64,000 bases of DNA from Deltaproteobacteria bacterium. Its GTDB lineage: Bacteria > Bdellovibrionota > UBA2394. Where the stretch lies: positions 1-64,000 of the forward strand of contig JAFLCD010000011.1 in assembly GCA_017302715.1 (NCBI GenBank). The letters are read 5' to 3'. Made by a program: the position numbers and the translations under genes. Below the pieces are notes generated by a model. The model made no database searches. It saw only the letters and a program-made list of their open reading frames with translations, and was not told the DNA's origin. Shown here piece by piece: positions 34,439-53,018 of the stretch (positions are counted from its first letter, which is position 1; every line of letters begins with the position of its first letter).

Positions 34439-36532
34439 ATGTCTAAAGAAGATTCAAATTTAAAATCCAACATTGAGCGGATTTTATCCGAATCCAAATA
34501 TGTTGAAGCCTTTAAAGAATTAGGCTGGTCAGGAAATTTTTGGGATTACCTAAAAATTGTTGAAGAGGATCCGAATGTGGCGCGTAACGCCCATCAACGT
34601 CTTTACGATATGGTGATGACCTACGGCACTCGCGACTACGTCGATGCAAAAAAAAATATCGTTCACTATAAATTTTTTGATGATCCAGATGATAACGGCA
34701 AAGATTCTATTTTCGGACTCGATGTTCCGCTGATGAAATTTGTCAGCGCTCTTAAGTCTGCCGCAAAAGGTTACGGAACTGAGCATCGCGTTTTGTTATT
34801 ACACGGACCTGTTGGAAGTTCAAAATCGACGATCGTACGTTTGCTCAAAAAAGGAATGGAAAAATATTCCAAGAAGCCTGAAGGCCGCATCTACACTTAT
34901 GTTTGGACGCTCAAGACTCCGATGATGTGGGAAGGTAAACCTCTTTTAGGAGAAGGCGTAACTGAAATGCCTTCCCCCATGAATGAAGAGCCACTCAAAC
35001 TTTTGCCGCTCGAAATTCGCGAAGAAGTTTTAAAGCAAATCAACAAAGGTCGATCTCCTGAAGATCAAATTGTCATCGAAGGCGAACTCAATCCTTGCTG
35101 CCGATTTATCTACAATGCGCTTTTAGAACATTACGATGGCGACTATCGAAAAGTTTTAGAGAACGTACGTATTCGCCGAATCGAACTTTCTGAAAAGAAA
35201 CGACAAGGTATTGCGACCTTTCAACCTAAGGATGAAAAAAATCAAGATTCGACAGAACTTACAGGTGACATCAACTACAGAAAAATTGCGATCTTTGGAT
35301 CTGAGTCGGATCCTCGCGCCTTTAACTTTGACGGCGAGTTCAATGTCGCAAACCGTGGGTTGATCGAGTTCATCGAAGTTCTTAAACTGGATGTGGCATT
35401 TCTCTATGATTTACTTGGCGCAAGTCAGGAACACAAAATCAAACCGAAGAAATTTCCACAGACCGATATTGATGAAGTGATCATTGGGCATACGAATGAA
35501 CCTGAATATCGAAAACTTCAGAACAACGAATTTATGGAAGCTCTGCGCGATCGAACCGTGAAGGTGGATGTTCCGTACATCACCAAGTGGACTGAGGAGA
35601 CTAAGATTTACAAACGAGATTACAATTCGACTCGTGTTCGCGGAAAACATATCGCACCACATACTTTAGAAATGGCAGCTATGTGGGCCGTGCTCACTCG
35701 TCTCGACGAGCCAAAAAAAGCAAATCTCACTTTGCTTCAAAAATTAAAGCTCTATGACGGAAAATCCTTAGCAGGATTTACTGAAGACAATATCAAGGAG
35801 CTGAGAAAAGAATCTCCTCGCGAAGGTATGGAAGGAATTTCGCCTCGATACATTCAAGACAAGATTAGCAACGCTCTTGTTTCTCAAGAAGCTGCATCGA
35901 TCAATCCATTTATGGTGTTGAATGAACTTGAAGGCGGATTGAAACACCACTCACTTGTTGCCAACGAAGACACTCGAAAGCGATATCGAGAATTGCTCAC
36001 CGTAGTTCGTCAAGAATACGAAGATATCGTTAAGAATGAAGTTCAACGAGCCGTAAGTTCGGATGAAGATTCGATTACTAAACTTTGCGCGAACTATATC
36101 GATTGCGTTAAGGCTTATACTCAACGCGAAAAAGTGAAAAATAAATTCACAGGTCAATATGAAGAGCCTGACGAAAAGCTCATGCGATCAATCGAAGATA
36201 AGATTGAAATTCCAGAATCTCGAAAAGACGATTTTAGACGAGAGATCATGAATTATATCGGCGCTCTTGCGGTTGAAGGTAAAACTTTCAATTACAAGAC
36301 TAACGAAAGACTTCATAAAGCTCTCGAACTCAAACTTTTTGAAGATCAAAAAGATTCTATCAAATTAACCAATTTGGTTTCGAATGTGATCGACAAAGAA
36401 ACCCAAGAAAAAATCGATATCGTTAAAACGAGATTGATTAAAAACTTTGGTTACAACGATGAGAGCGCCACGGATGTGCTTAATTTCGTAGCTTCGATTT
36501 TCGCCCGTGGGGACATTAAAGAGAAGAATTAA
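34439..36532 (+). CDS. prkA: PrkA-family AAA protein (YeaG)
   Basis: A 697-residue protein of normal PrkA length. The N-terminal AAA+ part has Walker [10 protein letters not shown] (about residue 122) and the sensor region; the C-terminal part is the PrkA-specific helical domain. PrkA/YeaG was first described as a Ser kinase and has more recently been reported to act as an AAA+ protease; it acts in sporulation in Bacillus and in nutrient stress in E. coli. AAGGAAGG precedes the ATG. It heads a three-gene operon with yeaH and spoVR, the order found in many non-sporing bacteria. Confidence 0.93.
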
Positions 36533-36562
36533 AGATCGGCGCTTTTGAGGAGGCGACATTAA

Positions 36563-37681
36563 GTGTTTCTGAAAATCAACACCGATCACTCACGCTTTCG
36601 CCAGATTATCCGCGGTAAAATCAAAAAAGATTTGCGTAAATTTATTTCGCGCGGCGAAGTCTTTGGTCGAAAAGGCAAGGATCTGGTCAGCATTCCTATG
36701 CCCTCGATTGATCTTCCCCACTTCGAATTTGGCGACAACAAAGGTCGTGGTATCGGCGCTGGAGACGGCCAGCCTGGACAAACTTTAGGACCGGGCGAAG
36801 GAAAAGAAGGCGAAGGTAAAGCGGGAAATGCCGAAGGACTTCATGTTCGTGAAGTCGACATCACCCTCGAAGAACTTGCGCAGATTTTAGGCGAAGAACT
36901 TGGACTCCCTCGCATCGAACCTAAAGGCGACAAACAAATGTCGTCTATGCGAGATCGCTACACCGGAATTAATAATATCGGCCCGCAATCTCTGCTGCAC
37001 TTTAAACGTACTTACAAAGAAGCGCTTCGCAGACAAATCGCAAACGGAACGTATGATCCTGAAAATCCTATTGTTACTCCTGAAGGAAGAGACGAAAGAT
37101 TTAGAACTTGGAAAACGAAGCCTGTCGAAAACAATAATGCTGTGATCATTTTGATCATGGACGTTTCGGGATCGATGGGTGATGAGCAAAAAGAAATCGT
37201 TCGCACAGAGAGTTTTTGGATCGATACCTGGCTTCGCTCTCAATATAAAGGCATCGACACTCGCTATATCGTTCACGACGCCACCGCTCGTGAAGTCGAT
37301 CGAGAGACTTTTTTTTCAACTCGTGAGTCCGGCGGAACGATTATTTCATCGGCCTATCAATTAGCAGATGAAATCATTCAAAAGCATTACCCTGCTTCAG
37401 AATGGAATATTTATCCTTTTCATTTTTCAGATGGAGACAACTGGAGTGCGGACGATACTCAAAAATGTTTTCAAATTTTAGAGCAAAAACTTTTACCTAA
37501 ATCGAATGTCTTTTGTTACGGCCAAGTCGAAAGTTTATACGGCAGCGGCCAATTTTTTAGAGATCTTAAAGAACATTTTCAGTCCGGAAAATCGGCGGCC
37601 GATCGTGTGATTGCTTCTCGGATTCCCAACAAAGAAGCAATTTACGATTCGATCAAAGAATTTTTGAATAAAGGTTTATAA
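36563..37681 (+). CDS. yeaH: YeaH/YhbH family protein (DUF444)
   Basis: A 372-residue protein starting with GTG at 36563, with GAGGAGG 9 bases upstream. A basic N-terminal region and a Gly-rich linker (residues about 60-95) lead to a von Willebrand A-like domain with the MIDAS motif DVSGSMGD. YeaH is co-transcribed with PrkA and SpoVR across proteobacteria and is thought to work with them in stress survival. It is 30 bases after prkA and 3 bases before spoVR. Confidence 0.92.
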
Positions 37682-37684
37682 AGA

Positions 37685-39196
37685 ATGGCAGATCTACCTA
37701 AAGAGCTCAGAATTTTTCAAGACGATATCGAGAAATATGCTCGCGATTACGGGCTCGATTTCTTCACGACCGTTTTTGAAATTTTAGACTTTGAGCAACT
37801 CAATCAAGTGGCGAGTTATGGTGGATTTCCCACTCGCTATCCACACTGGTCTTTTGGGATGGAATATGAACGGCTCTCAAAGAGTTATTCTTACGGACTT
37901 TCAAAAATTTACGAAATGGTAATCAACAATGATCCTGTTGTGGCCTATCTACTTAAATCGAATGCGGTGATGGATCAAAAGCTCGTGATGGCTCACGTCT
38001 TTGGTCACGCCGACTTTTTTAAAAATAATTATTATTTCTCAGTCACCAATCGAAAAGCTGTCGATATGATGGCTAATCATGGTGTAAAAATTCGCCGCTA
38101 TGTGGAGAAGTTAGGTTACGACAGAGTCGAGGCATTTATCGACACCTGCTTGACTCTCGAAAATTTAATTGATCCCCATGGAAATTTTATGAAGCGCACT
38201 CGAAGTCCTGAAGCCGATAGCGAGCAAGATTTCGATCCTTCGCGAATCAAAGTTCCAAAGCTCAGATCTAAGGACTATATGGATAAATTCATCAATCCAC
38301 CGGAGTTTTTAGAGCAGCAAAAGCAAAAAATAATCGATGAACAAAAAAGAGAAAGAGGATTTCCAGATTCTCCTCAGCAAGATGTACTTCAATTTTTAAT
38401 CGATTACGCGCCTTTAGAAAATTGGGAGAGGGATATTCTCTCGATCATTCGTGAAGAAGCTTATTATTTTCTTCCTCAAGGTCAGACCAAAGTGATGAAC
38501 GAAGGTTGGGCCAGCTATTGGCACACCACCATTATGACGAATAAAGCGATGACGGATTCTGAAGTCATTGATTACGCCGATCATCACTCAGGTACGGTTT
38601 CTATGGCGGGCGGAAGATTTAATCCTTATAAAATTGGATTAGAACTCTTTCGCGATATCGAAGATCGATGGAACAAAGGCAAATTTGGTTCTGAATACGA
38701 CAATTGCACCAATATGGTAGAGAAGAAAAATTGGGACCGAAAATTAGGTAAAGGCAAAGAAAAGATTTTTGAAGTTAGAAAAATTTATAATGACGTCACC
38801 TTCTTAGATGAGTTTTTAACTCCTGAATTCTGTGCTGAGCATAAACTGTTCACGTTTCAGATGAATCCAAAATCCAACGAATATGAAATCGCCTCTCGCG
38901 AGTTTGAAAAAATTAAGAAACAACTTTTATTTCAATTGGCCAATATGGGTCGCCCAAGAATTTTTGTGTCGAACGCGAATTACCAAAATCGAGGCGAACT
39001 TTATCTTTGGCATCAATTCGAAGGCGTTGAACTAAAGCTCGAAACTGCCAAAGAGACTCTGATGAATTTGCATAAGTGCTGGAGACGGCCCGTTCATATC
39101 CAGACTCGATTGGATGAGCATTATCGGCTCTTAAGTTTTGACGGAAAAGATCTCACCGAGCGCACCTTAAGCAAAGATGATGCCTACCAAGGTTAA
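37685..39196 (+). CDS. spoVR: SpoVR family protein
   Basis: A 503-residue SpoVR. Family marks include GFPTRYPHWSFGMEYE near the N-terminus, the AHVFGHADFFKNN segment, and NEGWASYWH with conserved metal-ligand-like His and Glu. In Bacillus SpoVR affects spore cortex formation; in other bacteria it accompanies PrkA and YeaH. The molecular activity is not known. This organism shows no sporulation gene in the window, so the role is probably in stress or dormancy, possibly in a developmental stage. Confidence 0.93.
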   Translation: MADLPKELRIFQDDIEKYARDYGLDFFTTVFEILDFEQLNQVASYGGFPTRYPHWSFGMEYERLSKSYSYGLSKIYEMVINNDPVVAYLLKSNAVMDQKLVMAHVFGHADFFKNNYYFSVTNRKAVDMMANHGVKIRRYVEKLGYDRVEAFIDTCLTLENLIDPHGNFMKRTRSPEADSEQDFDPSRIKVPKLRSKDYMDKFINPPEFLEQQKQKIIDEQKRERGFPDSPQQDVLQFLIDYAPLENWERDILSIIREEAYYFLPQGQTKVMNEGWASYWHTTIMTNKAMTDSEVIDYADHHSGTVSMAGGRFNPYKIGLELFRDIEDRWNKGKFGSEYDNCTNMVEKKNWDRKLGKGKEKIFEVRKIYNDVTFLDEFLTPEFCAEHKLFTFQMNPKSNEYEIASREFEKIKKQLLFQLANMGRPRIFVSNANYQNRGELYLWHQFEGVELKLETAKETLMNLHKCWRRPVHIQTRLDEHYRLLSFDGKDLTERTLSKDDAYQG

Positions 39197-41376: not shown

Positions 41377-42147
41377 CTATACATCCACCACTAAACTAAT
41401 CGGGCAGTGATCAGAGCCTTCGATTTCCTGATGTAATCGAATAGATTTCACTTTGTCTTTTAAGCGATCAGAGACAAAAAAATAATCGAGTCTCCATCCT
41501 TTGTTTCGCTGGCGCGCCATCTGACGATACGACCACCAAGTGTATTGATCTTTGGCATCGGGATAAAACAAACGAAACGCATCCGTAAATCCCGCAGCGA
41601 CCAATTGATCCATCCACTCTCGCTCTTCAGGCATAAATCCGCTCGTCCCATCGAGTCGAACGGGATCGTGAATATCGATCGCCTTATGCGCGATATTAAA
41701 ATCTCCGGTCATAATAACCGGTTTAGATTTATCTAAAGCTTTAAAAAATTTGAAAATATCTTTTAAAAATTTCATTTTAAAATAGTGTCGATCTTCACTC
41801 GCTGCTCCGTTTGGAAAATAGAGATTCACCAATTGAAATTTTCCATGATCCGAAACAATCACTCTTCCTTCGTTATCCACACTTTCAATTTCACATCCAA
41901 TATTTATTTTTTTTGGCTTTTCTTTAAAGAAATTGGCGACTCCGCTGTATCCTGGCTTTTTTGCGGAATGCCATTCTTGTTTAAAATCTCCGTAATGCGC
42001 GATAATTTCTTCGCATTGCTCTTTAAAAGCCTTCGTCTCTTGAAGACAAAAAATATCCGGAGCTTCTTTTTGAATAAACTGCGCCATGCCTTTTTTGGTG
42101 CAAGCACGAATGCCATTGACGTTCCACGAGAGAATTTTAGTCAGCAC
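41377..42147 (-). CDS. xth: Exodeoxyribonuclease III (AP endonuclease)
   Basis: A 256-residue Xth/ExoA enzyme. It has WNVNGIRA (Asn ligand), FCLQETK (metal Glu), GYSGVAN, GDFNIAH (catalytic Asp/Asn), RLDYFFVS and GSDHCPI (catalytic His). It cuts at abasic sites and degrades 3' ends in base-excision repair. Its start overlaps the tail of the upstream sigma-like gene by 11 bases, so they may be expressed together. It is convergent with the CoA-transferase. Confidence 0.95.
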   Translation of the reverse strand: MLTKILSWNVNGIRACTKKGMAQFIQKEAPDIFCLQETKAFKEQCEEIIAHYGDFKQEWHSAKKPGYSGVANFFKEKPKKINIGCEIESVDNEGRVIVSDHGKFQLVNLYFPNGAASEDRHYFKMKFLKDIFKFFKALDKSKPVIMTGDFNIAHKAIDIHDPVRLDGTSGFMPEEREWMDQLVAAGFTDAFRLFYPDAKDQYTWWSYRQMARQRNKGWRLDYFFVSDRLKDKVKSIRLHQEIEGSDHCPISLVVDV

Positions 42148-43738
42148 TAGTTATATCTCCCCCCTCAGAAACCGATTTAGCCGATTTTTTTTTCTTCGCA
42201 GTTGGCAGAGCTTTTCTAATTCCAACTTCAAGATTCTCTTTAAATTGAGCGTCGACAAAATTCATGGCATCCTTATGAATCTGCTCAAGTATTTCTGGAT
42301 CTGGGGAAGGCGCGCCACGTGCCATTAAGTCTTTAGAAATCCTTTTAAAATTAACCTTAACATTCTCTCTATAAATTCCATAAATCTCTCGAAGTAAAAA
42401 TTTCTGAGCAGGTGGGAACTGGTAGGATTTTAAGATCGTAAAAACTTTAATCTGCTGAAAACTCCATCTCAAGACTTTTCGCACTTGTTCTCGCGTGACA
42501 CCGAGCTCGGCACCCAACTCCTCCAATGTCTTGCTAGGCAATCCATCCAATCCATACCTGTGGGTAAGTATATATTCGGCATAGGGATGCCCTACTGTAT
42601 TAAACGAGGAATAAGGGCCTTGAACATCCTCGCCCTGTTTACGCTCCGATTTTAAAATTTCAATACCATCAAGAATAATTTTTGATCTAAATGCGTCTCG
42701 ATCTTTTTCAGAGGATCGAAAGAAAGTGTTAAAGTTCATGTCCACTGCTTCGAGACTTTCGCCAAATTCCGTTCCGTTGTGATTTGTGTAATTTAAAGAC
42801 AAAGGCCGTTTATCAAAGATCATACGATTTGCAGGGGATAACCGACTATAGGCTCGAGACATCGCTTGTTTTATCCATCTAGACGCATAAGTTGAAAATC
42901 TATTTTCGAGTCGAGGATCAAAACCTTGAACGCCTCTTCGCAAACCCATATTTCCCATTTGAATTAAATCAATAAGCTCGAGTCTACCGTCGAATTTTTT
43001 TGCAAAAGGCACGACAAGAGCAAGGTTATGCTCGACAAAATAATTAATAAGCTTTTGAAGCTCTTCGTAAGGCCTTTGAATTTTTTGCATTTCGCTATCA
43101 AGAACTTTGGTGTCGCTGCCATTAGATAGGCTCATCATTTTTTCTCTTAAACCAAAATAACTTTCTAAAAGATGTACATGCATAAATGCATTTGAAAGAG
43201 GTAAATCAAAAAGATTTTTCATCGCTTTTTCAAGCTCCGACTTTAATCTCTCGCGCTCGACACCTTCAGATTTATTGAAGCGAATAAAAGTCTCGCTCAT
43301 TTGATTTACAGTCTGAAGAAACCTCTCTCTCAAAAATGGATAATTTTCTGACTCCGATTTTGCACCCAGTACAATTTTTGTAAGATGCGATTTTTTGTAT
43401 TCAACTCGGTTCTTCCAAAACTCAAGCAAGCTAATCATGATCGGAGAGGTCGCAAGGCTTAAAAGAATTTCTTGATTGAGTTTAAGTGCACTTGTTCCTA
43501 ATTCAATTTCTCTTTCTGCACCTAAACCTTGATCGGGATTGAAACTCTTTACGTAATTTTGAAGATCTCCATTGATCTCGACTTTTGTTACCGGAGGTTT
43601 TTTTCGGCGTTTTTCAGGAGCGCTTAAACGTTTCGCTAACTCTCTACAGAGCTCGTCTTGATCGCGCGCAGAGACAGGCACTGAAAAGCTCAGGCAAAAA
43701 AGGGTTAAAACGGATTTGAAAAAAATCTTCGATGCCAC
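42137..43738 (-). CDS. RpoD-like sigma-70 factor with an N-terminal signal peptide
   Basis: A 533-residue protein. From a GTG at 43738 it begins ASKIFFKSVLTLFCLSFSVP, then VSARDQ: a basic n-region, a hydrophobic core and a VSA signal-peptidase site. Then follow a region 1.2-like segment (about 72-115), a non-conserved region, region 2 (about 237-297: NLALVVPFAKKF, LIDLIQMGN, FSTYASRWIKQAM), region 3, and a region 4.2 helix-turn-helix (about 405-430: LEELGAELGVTREQVRKVL). Region 2 is close enough to promoter-melting sigma factors to suggest activity. A later GTG at 43681 would give a cytoplasmic form. No good Shine-Dalgarno marks any start. Confidence 0.8.
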   Translation of the reverse strand: MASKIFFKSVLTLFCLSFSVPVSARDQDELCRELAKRLSAPEKRRKKPPVTKVEINGDLQNYVKSFNPDQGLGAEREIELGTSALKLNQEILLSLATSPIMISLLEFWKNRVEYKKSHLTKIVLGAKSESENYPFLRERFLQTVNQMSETFIRFNKSEGVERERLKSELEKAMKNLFDLPLSNAFMHVHLLESYFGLREKMMSLSNGSDTKVLDSEMQKIQRPYEELQKLINYFVEHNLALVVPFAKKFDGRLELIDLIQMGNMGLRRGVQGFDPRLENRFSTYASRWIKQAMSRAYSRLSPANRMIFDKRPLSLNYTNHNGTEFGESLEAVDMNFNTFFRSSEKDRDAFRSKIILDGIEILKSERKQGEDVQGPYSSFNTVGHPYAEYILTHRYGLDGLPSKTLEELGAELGVTREQVRKVLRWSFQQIKVFTILKSYQFPPAQKFLLREIYGIYRENVKVNFKRISKDLMARGAPSPDPEILEQIHKDAMNFVDAQFKENLEVGIRKALPTAKKKKSAKSVSEGGDITSAD

Positions 43739-43835
43739 GAGCGTAGAATACTGCAAATTTCAGGCCAGAAAGGCCAGTTGAAAACCCTTTAAAATGCCTT
43801 TAAAACTAAAGAAATGTGCAATGAGAGGTTTTAAA

Positions 43836-43858: not shown

Positions 43859-44434
43859 TCACTCTTCGGTCTTCTGACGATCTCGCTCTAAAGCCCGAGC
43901 GCGAAGCATCTCTCGCTCGCGAGCGATTACATAGCGGTGTAAAAACTCAACATCTTCGTCGTGAATAGCTACGAAATTTCCATCGATATAGTCATTTGCC
44001 AAAGAGCTTACTTTTAAAGCGGCCACCATTCTTTGCTCAGGAAGCGAAGGTAAAATCAAATCGAGTAAAAGCAAATCTCCAACTTTTACAGACTTAGTTT
44101 TTTCATGAGAAAACGAAAGTCCTTTTGCACCAAGCTCACCATGCACCCAATCGTAATTTTCTAAAATTTTATACTTACTCGAATCAGGGTTATACATCTG
44201 CTCTTCGATTCGTTCTAAACGTTGATCAATATTGAGAAGAATTTGAAAAGCTTTCTCGAGAAGATTTTTGGATTCATCTCGAATCGCCATCGCCGATAAT
44301 TGATTTTCGATTTGGCTTTTTAATGCGGAGTAAGCCGAAGGCCTCATGGCATAAGATCTAAAAACTTCGAGCTCGCTCTCTTCGATCGTACGAAATCGAA
44401 CTTGAAATTCACATGCTACTCTAAAGCCAGACAT
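43859..44434 (-). CDS. PilZ-like domain protein
   Basis: A 191-residue soluble protein. A helical N-terminal half (about 1-85, LLNIDQRLERIEEQM) leads to a beta-rich domain with a PilZ-like pattern: GELGAKGLSFS, VGDLLLLDLILP, an ALKVSS strand, FVAIHDEDVEFLHRYVIAREREML. PilZ domains bind cyclic di-GMP; the usual RxxxR is not clearly present (only VRFRT near the start), so it may be a non-binding variant. Possible link to the HD-GYP protein elsewhere in the window. Confidence 0.55.
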   Translation of the reverse strand: MSGFRVACEFQVRFRTIEESELEVFRSYAMRPSAYSALKSQIENQLSAMAIRDESKNLLEKAFQILLNIDQRLERIEEQMYNPDSSKYKILENYDWVHGELGAKGLSFSHEKTKSVKVGDLLLLDLILPSLPEQRMVAALKVSSLANDYIDGNFVAIHDEDVEFLHRYVIAREREMLRARALERDRQKTEE

Positions 44435-51819: not shown

Positions 51820-52023
51820 ATGGACGCTCTCGCTCCACAACTCAGCTATATCAGCATCGTTTTGCTCGTGATCGCGACTGTCGATGTGGTGATTGGCTTA
51901 CTATTCCCTGTATCAAAAACCGCGCTCAAATGGATATGCGCTATCGGACTTTCAACTGCTGGAATGATGTCGGTCCTTTGCGGAATAATTTACGTTTGGC
52001 ATCACTATTATCGCTTAAGCTAA
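51820..52023 (+). CDS. Small membrane protein, two helices
   Basis: A 67-residue frame with two hydrophobic helices (ISIVLLVIATVDVVIGLLF and WICAIGLSTAGMMSVLCGIIYVW) joined by SKTALK, and a short cytoplasmic or periplasmic tail. This composition supports a real protein. No Shine-Dalgarno is visible before the ATG. No family recognised. It ends 4 bases inside a convergent gene. Confidence 0.5.
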   Translation: MDALAPQLSYISIVLLVIATVDVVIGLLFPVSKTALKWICAIGLSTAGMMSVLCGIIYVWHHYYRLS

Positions 52024-53018
52024 AGACCTAAAGTTTCTTTGACCGACAAATAATACCAAGATGTTCCAGCCCTATCTGTCAGAAAAATGGTTTCACCCTT
52101 GAGATCCGTCGTAAAGGGTTGCAAGTTACCTGCAGATTTCCAAACATGAGGTTTGCCATTTTTTCTTAAATCATAAAGTTGAAGCGAATCTTTATTCGCT
52201 ATCAAAATATATCGACGAAGTGGATCTCGAATTAATCGATCGCTCGAAATATCCGGAAACTTAGAGAGATCTGCATCACTTAAATTTTTAACGGGGATAT
52301 CGGGATGAGTAAAAATTGAAGAAGCTTGAGGAGCTTTAGGAATATTTACCGCCAAATCTCCTTTGATCATCTGGTAAAGCATGCTTACCCCTGAAGCGAT
52401 ACTTGCACCAGCCAACGCAACAACTCCTATGTGAGAAAAAATATTCTCTGGAATGATATTCGCTTTATCTGCCAAAGAAGTGGCAACAGCCCAACTCGAA
52501 GTCGACATAAAAGTCGAAATCGAATGTTCATTTAAATAATATTTAATTTTCTCTGCTAAATATTTTCCAGCCTGCAGTCGCTTAATTTTTGTTAATGCAT
52601 TTCCTTGAAAATCCAAGTCTTGTAAAAAAACTTTATCACCGGCATATCGAATAAGAGTTACAGCGTTAGGATAGCTTTTTGAAAATAAATGAATATTTGC
52701 CAAATCACGCCCGTCGATTTGATTTGCTTTTAAATCAATGACTCCAATCGGCTCCATTTTTTTTGAATCAATTTCAATTGCCGAAATGGTGAGTGCATCG
52801 TTTTTATCTGAATATTTAAGAATTTGTATGGACCTAGATTCAGAGTCCCAACGAGCATCCAATACTCCATCTGCAATTTTTTGTGGCTGAGGCAAGTTTT
52901 CAGGAAGTCTGCCCATGATTATACGACAGTCAGTCGAACCTTTTGCTGTCACAGCAAAAACAGGCAAAACCATGCAAAAAATAAGAAGATAAAATCTAAA
53001 TGAAGAAAAAGCAGTCAT
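52020..53018 (-). CDS. Exported protein of unknown function
   Basis: A 332-residue protein with a signal peptide (YLLIFCMVLPVFAVTA, then KGS). A possible second membrane helix lies near residues 185-215 (NIFSHIGVVALAGASIASGVSML). The N-terminal half has repeated short strand motifs of the ALTISAIEID, LKANQID type, suggesting a beta-propeller-like domain, but I cannot name it. It is unlinked to its neighbours by function. Confidence 0.6.
   Translation of the reverse strand: MTAFSSFRFYLLIFCMVLPVFAVTAKGSTDCRIIMGRLPENLPQPQKIADGVLDARWDSESRSIQILKYSDKNDALTISAIEIDSKKMEPIGVIDLKANQIDGRDLANIHLFSKSYPNAVTLIRYAGDKVFLQDLDFQGNALTKIKRLQAGKYLAEKIKYYLNEHSISTFMSTSSWAVATSLADKANIIPENIFSHIGVVALAGASIASGVSMLYQMIKGDLAVNIPKAPQASSIFTHPDIPVKNLSDADLSKFPDISSDRLIRDPLRRYILIANKDSLQLYDLRKNGKPHVWKSAGNLQPFTTDLKGETIFLTDRAGTSWYYLSVKETLGL

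Follow-up and report, generated by a model that had tools for sequence, protein, structure and literature searches.

A sigma-70-like protein with a predicted Sec signal peptide and its leader-bearing counterparts across Bdellovibrionota

The window analyzed here is a stretch of 64,000 nucleotides from a member of the Bdellovibrionota (assembly GCA_017302715.1, contig JAFLCD010000011.1, positions 1 to 64,000). On its minus strand lies a 533-codon open reading frame that runs from a GTG at 43738 to a stop at 42137, exactly as delimited in a preliminary description of the sequence. The features of this locus are as follows.

42137-43738, minus strand: gene for the predicted exported sigma-70-like protein (533 aa), with a GTG start; a TTG at 43756 is also a possible start.
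43667-43738, minus strand: predicted Sec signal peptide, residues 1 to 24, with cleavage after V-S-A (rule-based scan).
43679-43681, minus strand: internal in-frame GTG (V20), the alternative start named in the preliminary description.
43625-43648, minus strand: postcleavage cysteine helix motif C31-RELAKRL; the mature protein has no other cysteine.
43295-43516, minus strand: stretch collinear with RpoD region 1.2 and the start of the nonconserved region, residues 75 to 148 (-0.8 bits, not significant alone).
42842-43039, minus strand: sigma region 2 (Sigma70_r2), residues 234 to 299 (Pfam, 41.7 bits, cutoff 24, E 9.7e-11).
42449-42571, minus strand: sigma region 4 with a helix-turn-helix (Sigma70_r4), residues 390 to 430 (Pfam, 24.2 bits, cutoff 24.1, E 2.4e-5).
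42140-42439, minus strand: C-terminal extension of about 100 residues (434 to 533) without a Pfam match.
41377-42147, minus strand: exonuclease III-like gene (PF03372), the downstream neighbor, which overlaps the sigma-like gene by 11 nt and lacks a signal peptide.

The exonuclease III-like gene is probably cotranscribed with the sigma-like gene. On the upstream side, positions 43859-44434 of the minus strand encode a 191-aa protein that has no Pfam match at an E value of <0.001. Elsewhere in the window, genes for a PrkA kinase, a DUF444 protein, and SpoVR stand consecutively on the plus strand (34439-39196), a row that we take to be a widespread stress operon.

The preliminary description called the product RpoD-like and recognized regions 1.2, 2, and 4. 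For regions 2 and 4 this holds, since both Pfam domains exceed their gathering cutoffs; for region 1.2 the collinearity with RpoD is there, but the match does not reach significance. Among NCBIfam models, the protein exceeds the cutoff of the sigma70-ECF superfamily model TIGR02937 (60.6 bits; cutoff, 42.9), whereas its score of 90.2 bits against the RpoD equivalog TIGR02393 is far below the cutoff of 354, and the RpoS equivalog match is likewise far under its cutoff. The best PDB matches are SigA, RpoS, and HrdB, aligned to residues 217 to 298. When classes were scored with models built from local canonical sigma factors, RpoD was the best class (70 bits). Comparison of residues with Escherichia coli sigma-70 found region 3.0 (R451/H455/E458) to be absent. 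A canonical RpoD of 672 aa sits elsewhere in the same genome, which also encodes FliA-, RpoH-, and ECF-type sigma factors; thus, the gene in the window is an extra, divergent sigma copy, and its score, the missing region 3.0, and the presence of a true RpoD set it apart from RpoD equivalogs. A single-sequence AlphaFold prediction had a mean pLDDT of 38.8, and the model was not used.

Sigma factors are textbook cytoplasmic proteins. The N terminus of this one reads VASKIFFKSVLTLFCLSFSVPVSA/RDQDELC, in which the slash marks the predicted cleavage site, and the leader is followed by RDQDELCRELAKRL. The claim that region 1.1 is replaced by a textbook Sec signal is borne out: K4 and K8 precede a hydrophobic core, V-S-A occupies residues 22 to 24, and the rule-based scan recovers n-, h-, and c-regions with an AxA-type site, a build that recurs in the family. 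Two observations count against export, namely, that the hydrophobic core is the weakest among the 22 leaders assembled below (mean Kyte-Doolittle [KD] hydropathy, 2.14) and that no clear ribosome-binding site is present, a Shine-Dalgarno sequence being evident by eye at none of the three candidate starts. Processing as a lipoprotein by signal peptidase II is disfavored; no lipobox precedes the cysteine, which follows DEL in this protein, and most members of the set are alike in this respect. One member, G059:C4 (LGA/C), could be an exception.

No ortholog of the window protein was found in 59 relatives at an E value of <1e-20, nor in its family, order, or class, all of which consist of the same five genomes (four besides its own). 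A search of genome contigs gave a generic sigma factor only, and when region 2 alone was used as the query over 114 genomes, canonical sigma factors swamped the results. The preliminary description would count it as a refutation if every ortholog began past the hydrophobic segment; the nearest equivalents go the other way and do carry hydrophobic leaders. A paralog in the same genome, P0002 (G000:C13, 452 aa), shows a 465-aa alignment to the window protein at an E value of 4e-11 and begins MNEVCVQVSRSFSLLKFSIFVVVVATCSLSSAFA/FVECKK, with SSAFA before the cut. Each of the four relatives sequenced within the family encodes at least one signal-peptide sigma-like protein. Their leaders end in SLSFA/REKAC (G004:C59, 1,280 aa), ELSFG/C (G004:C66), ASLRA/DIC (G003:C19), TDAGA/IGRPLFGC (G003:C59), PSTNA/MSC (G001:C123), and PSVVWA/IKDQC (G002:C62), and G001:C50 holds a further leader-bearing sigma-like frame. 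In most of these family leaders, as in that of the window protein, a cysteine stands just past the cleavage site. Two other frames in these relatives deserve mention. Adjoining the signal-peptide sigma-like gene on G003:C59 is a gene for a 235-aa signal-peptide protein (L149 509-1216; ..SSCPENI..) with an RFSTNAR stretch, which may be a further eroded relative. On G004:C73 (L207), a frame of about 700 aa has a lipoprotein-like start (ALTLFAC/EKNRP) and a weak region-4-like helix-turn-helix, and it is possibly a lipoprotein variant of the exported sigma-like class.

To describe the distribution of such proteins in the phylum, 14 genomes were scanned with TIGR02937, and the frames were fetched and tested at all possible start codons against a handmade rule (a positive n-region, ten uncharged hydrophobic residues, and an AxA-type site). 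We obtained 22 sigma-like frames with a hydrophobic leader, 20 by the rule and two by eye, from six families of the phylum (f1, f16, f19, f20, f21, and f22). Two of the 22, G084:C31 (0.2 bits) and G059:C302, are only weakly sigma-like and may not be members of the class. None of 73 other sigma or helix-turn-helix open reading frames from the same and related genomes passed the rule. The best-core hydropathy is at least 2.14 in the leader set and at most 1.67 in these 73 frames, a contrast that is descriptive and not fully blind because the set was assembled partly by the leader rule. No such frames occurred among those examined in the sampled genomes of f6, f9, f12, f14, f17, and f18, and when 14 additional genomes were searched with TIGR02937, no obvious new candidate appeared in the list of frames, a minority of which were read. 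The ortholog searches made outside the family of the window protein had the same outcome: P0008, a member described below, had none within its own family, and the G118 protein had none among 60 genomes from its order, its own genus included.

An AxA-type cleavage site is present in 21 of the 22 leader-bearing proteins. A cysteine lies within 20 residues after the cleavage site in 19 of the 22 but in only 4 of 33 other signal-peptide open reading frames (Fisher P = 3e-8), the latter being a small background of nonsigma frames from the window and the fetched loci and not a whole proteome. This cysteine is the sole one of the mature chain in many members, the window protein included, and the surrounding pattern is C-x-[E/T/D]-hydrophobic-hydrophobic. 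The only nonsigma protein flagged in the window for the same cysteine position is encoded beside secA (52020-53018, minus strand); it is a 332-aa signal-peptide protein with the sequence KGSTDCRIIMG soon after the predicted cleavage site. A separate observation concerns gene arrangement: on G084:C60 (L152 2732-4147), a gene whose product has at least 1,271 aa and no assigned family is followed immediately downstream by two neighboring ECF-like genes with signal peptides.

The leader-bearing proteins differ in the sigma class that they match. RpoD is favored for G110:C94 (P0008; 176 bits, versus 64 for FliA) and G004:C59 (79 bits), FliA for G004:C66 (74 bits, versus 27 for RpoD) and G001:C123 (69 bits), and ECF for G002:C62 (100 bits, versus -2 for RpoD), G097:C16 (66 bits), and G059:C40 (63 bits). 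G110:C111 is RpoH-like (52 bits). NCBIfam agrees for the proteins tested, with 196.8 bits for P0008 against RpoD_Cterm and 120 and 93 bits for P0006 and P0007 against FliA/WhiG. Since the matches fall in different classes, a hydrophobic leader was gained at least three times, on RpoD, FliA, and ECF backgrounds; RpoH is probably a fourth source. This apparent repeated conversion in several sigma classes was not foreseen in the preliminary description. The set also includes an unusual architecture, G059:C4 (L151 3792-7127), a 1,111-aa protein in which a signal peptide is combined with a single ECF-like region 2 and with several stretches, spread over its length, that resemble region 4; a shorter relative is found on G059:C167.

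We then compared 24 positions that serve core binding and promoter contact in E. coli sigma-70. P0008 retains 22 of the 24, the window protein 13, and others as few as about 6. In region 2, the window protein keeps the equivalents of D403, Q406, N409, Y430, W434, and Q437 and lacks E407 and W433; thus, within the polymerase-binding set of region 2.2, D403, Q406, and N409 are preserved and E407 is replaced by M. In region 4, the equivalents of T583, R584, E585, and R588 remain (the -35 recognition helix, T-R-E..R). P0008 (L089 965-2503) is a 512-aa RpoD-type protein with a clear signal peptide (EPTYA/ARKKGNC), which makes it the best single candidate for asking if exported sigma factors can function. 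A gradient of this kind would be expected if the conversions differ in age, P0008 being a putatively fresh one. Because such a conversion still resembles a working sigma factor, the class, judged by its sequences, cannot be dismissed as decay. The leader and the cysteine are conserved in it, whereas sigma activity appears not to be.

On balance, we favor the view that the product of the gene in the window is extracytoplasmic and descends from an RpoD-type sigma factor by duplication, and that the class to which it belongs was recruited repeatedly, with a scaffold as the likely role. Among the options raised in the preliminary description, conversion to an exported protein is thus the best supported, and a later start and a membrane-held form are disfavored. 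The product made from the GTG at 43738 would be targeted to Sec by residues 1 to 24, and signal peptidase I would cut after V-S-A to leave a mature chain that begins RDQDELC. This chain would keep the folds of regions 2 and 4, having lost region 3.0 and some of the polymerase and promoter contacts. The class as a whole would have originated when RpoD, FliA, ECF, and probably RpoH proteins acquired a signal peptide together with a short helix bearing the cysteine, followed after export by fast divergence in which sigma contacts were lost to differing degrees. The most likely role would be that of an all-helical DNA- or protein-binding scaffold, repurposed outside the cytoplasm, in which the lone N-terminal cysteine might serve for attachment or for a disulfide. 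In Bdellovibrio, about 20 residues of Sec leader suffice to secrete a reporter into the medium (PMC12622784).

The scaffold role is strained by P0008, which keeps nearly all of the sigma contacts that a mere scaffold would not need. This brings up the less probable, yet appreciable, alternative that these are real sigma factors, either secreted to act on the RNA polymerase of another cell or secretion gated to report the state of the cell's own Sec system; to our knowledge, neither mode is known, and neither turned up in the open literature covered here. Of the two, the gated version is unlikely. It proposes that the signal peptide ordinarily clears the protein from the cytoplasm and that protein left inside by a saturated Sec system or a damaged envelope would join RNA polymerase and switch on a response, which would account for the coexistence of sigma contacts with a good signal peptide, as in P0008, and for the recruitment of several sigma classes. 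It has a precedent in ATFS-1, which monitors import into mitochondria by the same logic (PMC5835775, PMC7817664). However, most polymerase and promoter contacts are gone from P0002, P0005, and G118:C8, which nevertheless retain the leader and the cysteine, a motif for which gating offers no role, and neither a target promoter nor a regulon was found.

The secreted version, to which we give slightly less credence, would make these proteins effectors directed at another cell, be it prey, competitor, or host, whose RNA polymerase or DNA they would act on in the way that phage sigma factors do. Phage sigma factors act inside the infected cell, and an exported protein has no known route over a second cytoplasmic membrane. 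None of the proteins was found in the sampled Bdellovibrio-type genomes, and the contacts are eroded in many members. On the other hand, rapid turnover without orthologs, together with a common short N-terminal module on varied classes, resembles effector repertoires, and the region 2.2 polymerase-binding motif persists in P0008 and in several ECF-like members. The phylum also includes predators whose Sec-secreted proteins reach prey (PMC12622784).

It is quite improbable that the leader is an uncleaved anchor of a membrane-tethered pro-sigma factor from which regulated proteolysis would free an active sigma factor into the cytoplasm, the option that the preliminary description raised as a membrane-held and released form. 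Membrane-held sigma factors are established (PMC11486902, PMC8999054). Nearly all of the leaders here, however, have AxA-type sites and carry positive charge ahead of the core, a build for which an N-in/C-out topology is predicted, with the sigma part outside. Pro-sigmaK has the reverse arrangement, with its N terminus out and its sigma domain cytoplasmic (PMC11486902), and a tethered precursor is therefore disfavored; the window protein also lacks region 3.0. Least probable is an ordinary divergent, cytoplasmic sigma-like protein with a miscalled start, translated from the GTG at 43681, as the preliminary description proposed, or later: that GTG is in frame and no start has a clear Shine-Dalgarno sequence, but the paralog and sigma-like proteins of four other genera in the family begin with similarly built leaders, 21 other sigma-like proteins of the phylum share this build and 0 of 73 controls do, and the conserved position of the cysteine relative to the cleavage site would be left unexplained, so that, given the AxA-type sites and nearby cysteines counted above, the leader is most reasonably taken as real and recurrent.

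The gain of a signal peptide and a cysteine-bearing N terminus by each of several sigma classes would point to an unexpected extracellular use of the sigma fold or to a new kind of transcription control or delivery. Automated annotation of these genes as "sigma-70 family RNA polymerase sigma factor" probably misleads. A library of 5.39 million openly available papers yielded no secreted sigma factor and no sigma factor aimed at prey polymerase, and the papers retrieved from it contained no report of signal-peptide sigma factors; the exported sigma-like group is apparently undescribed in its phylum.

Several known systems resemble these proteins in part. The likeness to RpoD/sigma-70 (TIGR02393, NF004208) lies in regions 2 and 4 and in RpoD being the best class match of the window protein, which differs by a signal peptide in place of region 1.1 and by the lack of region 3.0, E407, and W433. 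Pro-sigmaK and pro-sigmaE of Bacillus share a hydrophobic N-terminal leader on a sigma-70-family protein. The pro-sequence of pro-sigmaK enters the membrane N terminus out and is cut within the membrane by SpoIVFB; in contrast, the leaders described here have the build of a Sec signal peptide (a positive n-region, a core, and an AxA-type site) and the opposite predicted topology. ECF factors with membrane extensions (IutY, ECF36, and ECF48/52/53) likewise couple a sigma domain to membrane segments; as described in the available part of PMC8999054, their extensions are anti-sigma extensions with at least one transmembrane helix that leave the sigma part cytoplasmic, and that part describes no signal peptidase I-type leader for them. 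Release of IutY by RseP and of pro-sigmaK by SpoIVFB are cases of regulated proteolysis. Nuclear-encoded plastid sigma factors also have an N-terminal targeting peptide and cross membranes to meet their polymerase, but the peptide is a eukaryotic transit peptide and the destination is an organelle of the same cell. ATFS-1, of the mitochondrial unfolded protein response, is an unrelated bZIP protein in animals, and the likeness is one of possible logic only: a transcription factor whose translocation signal reports on translocation.
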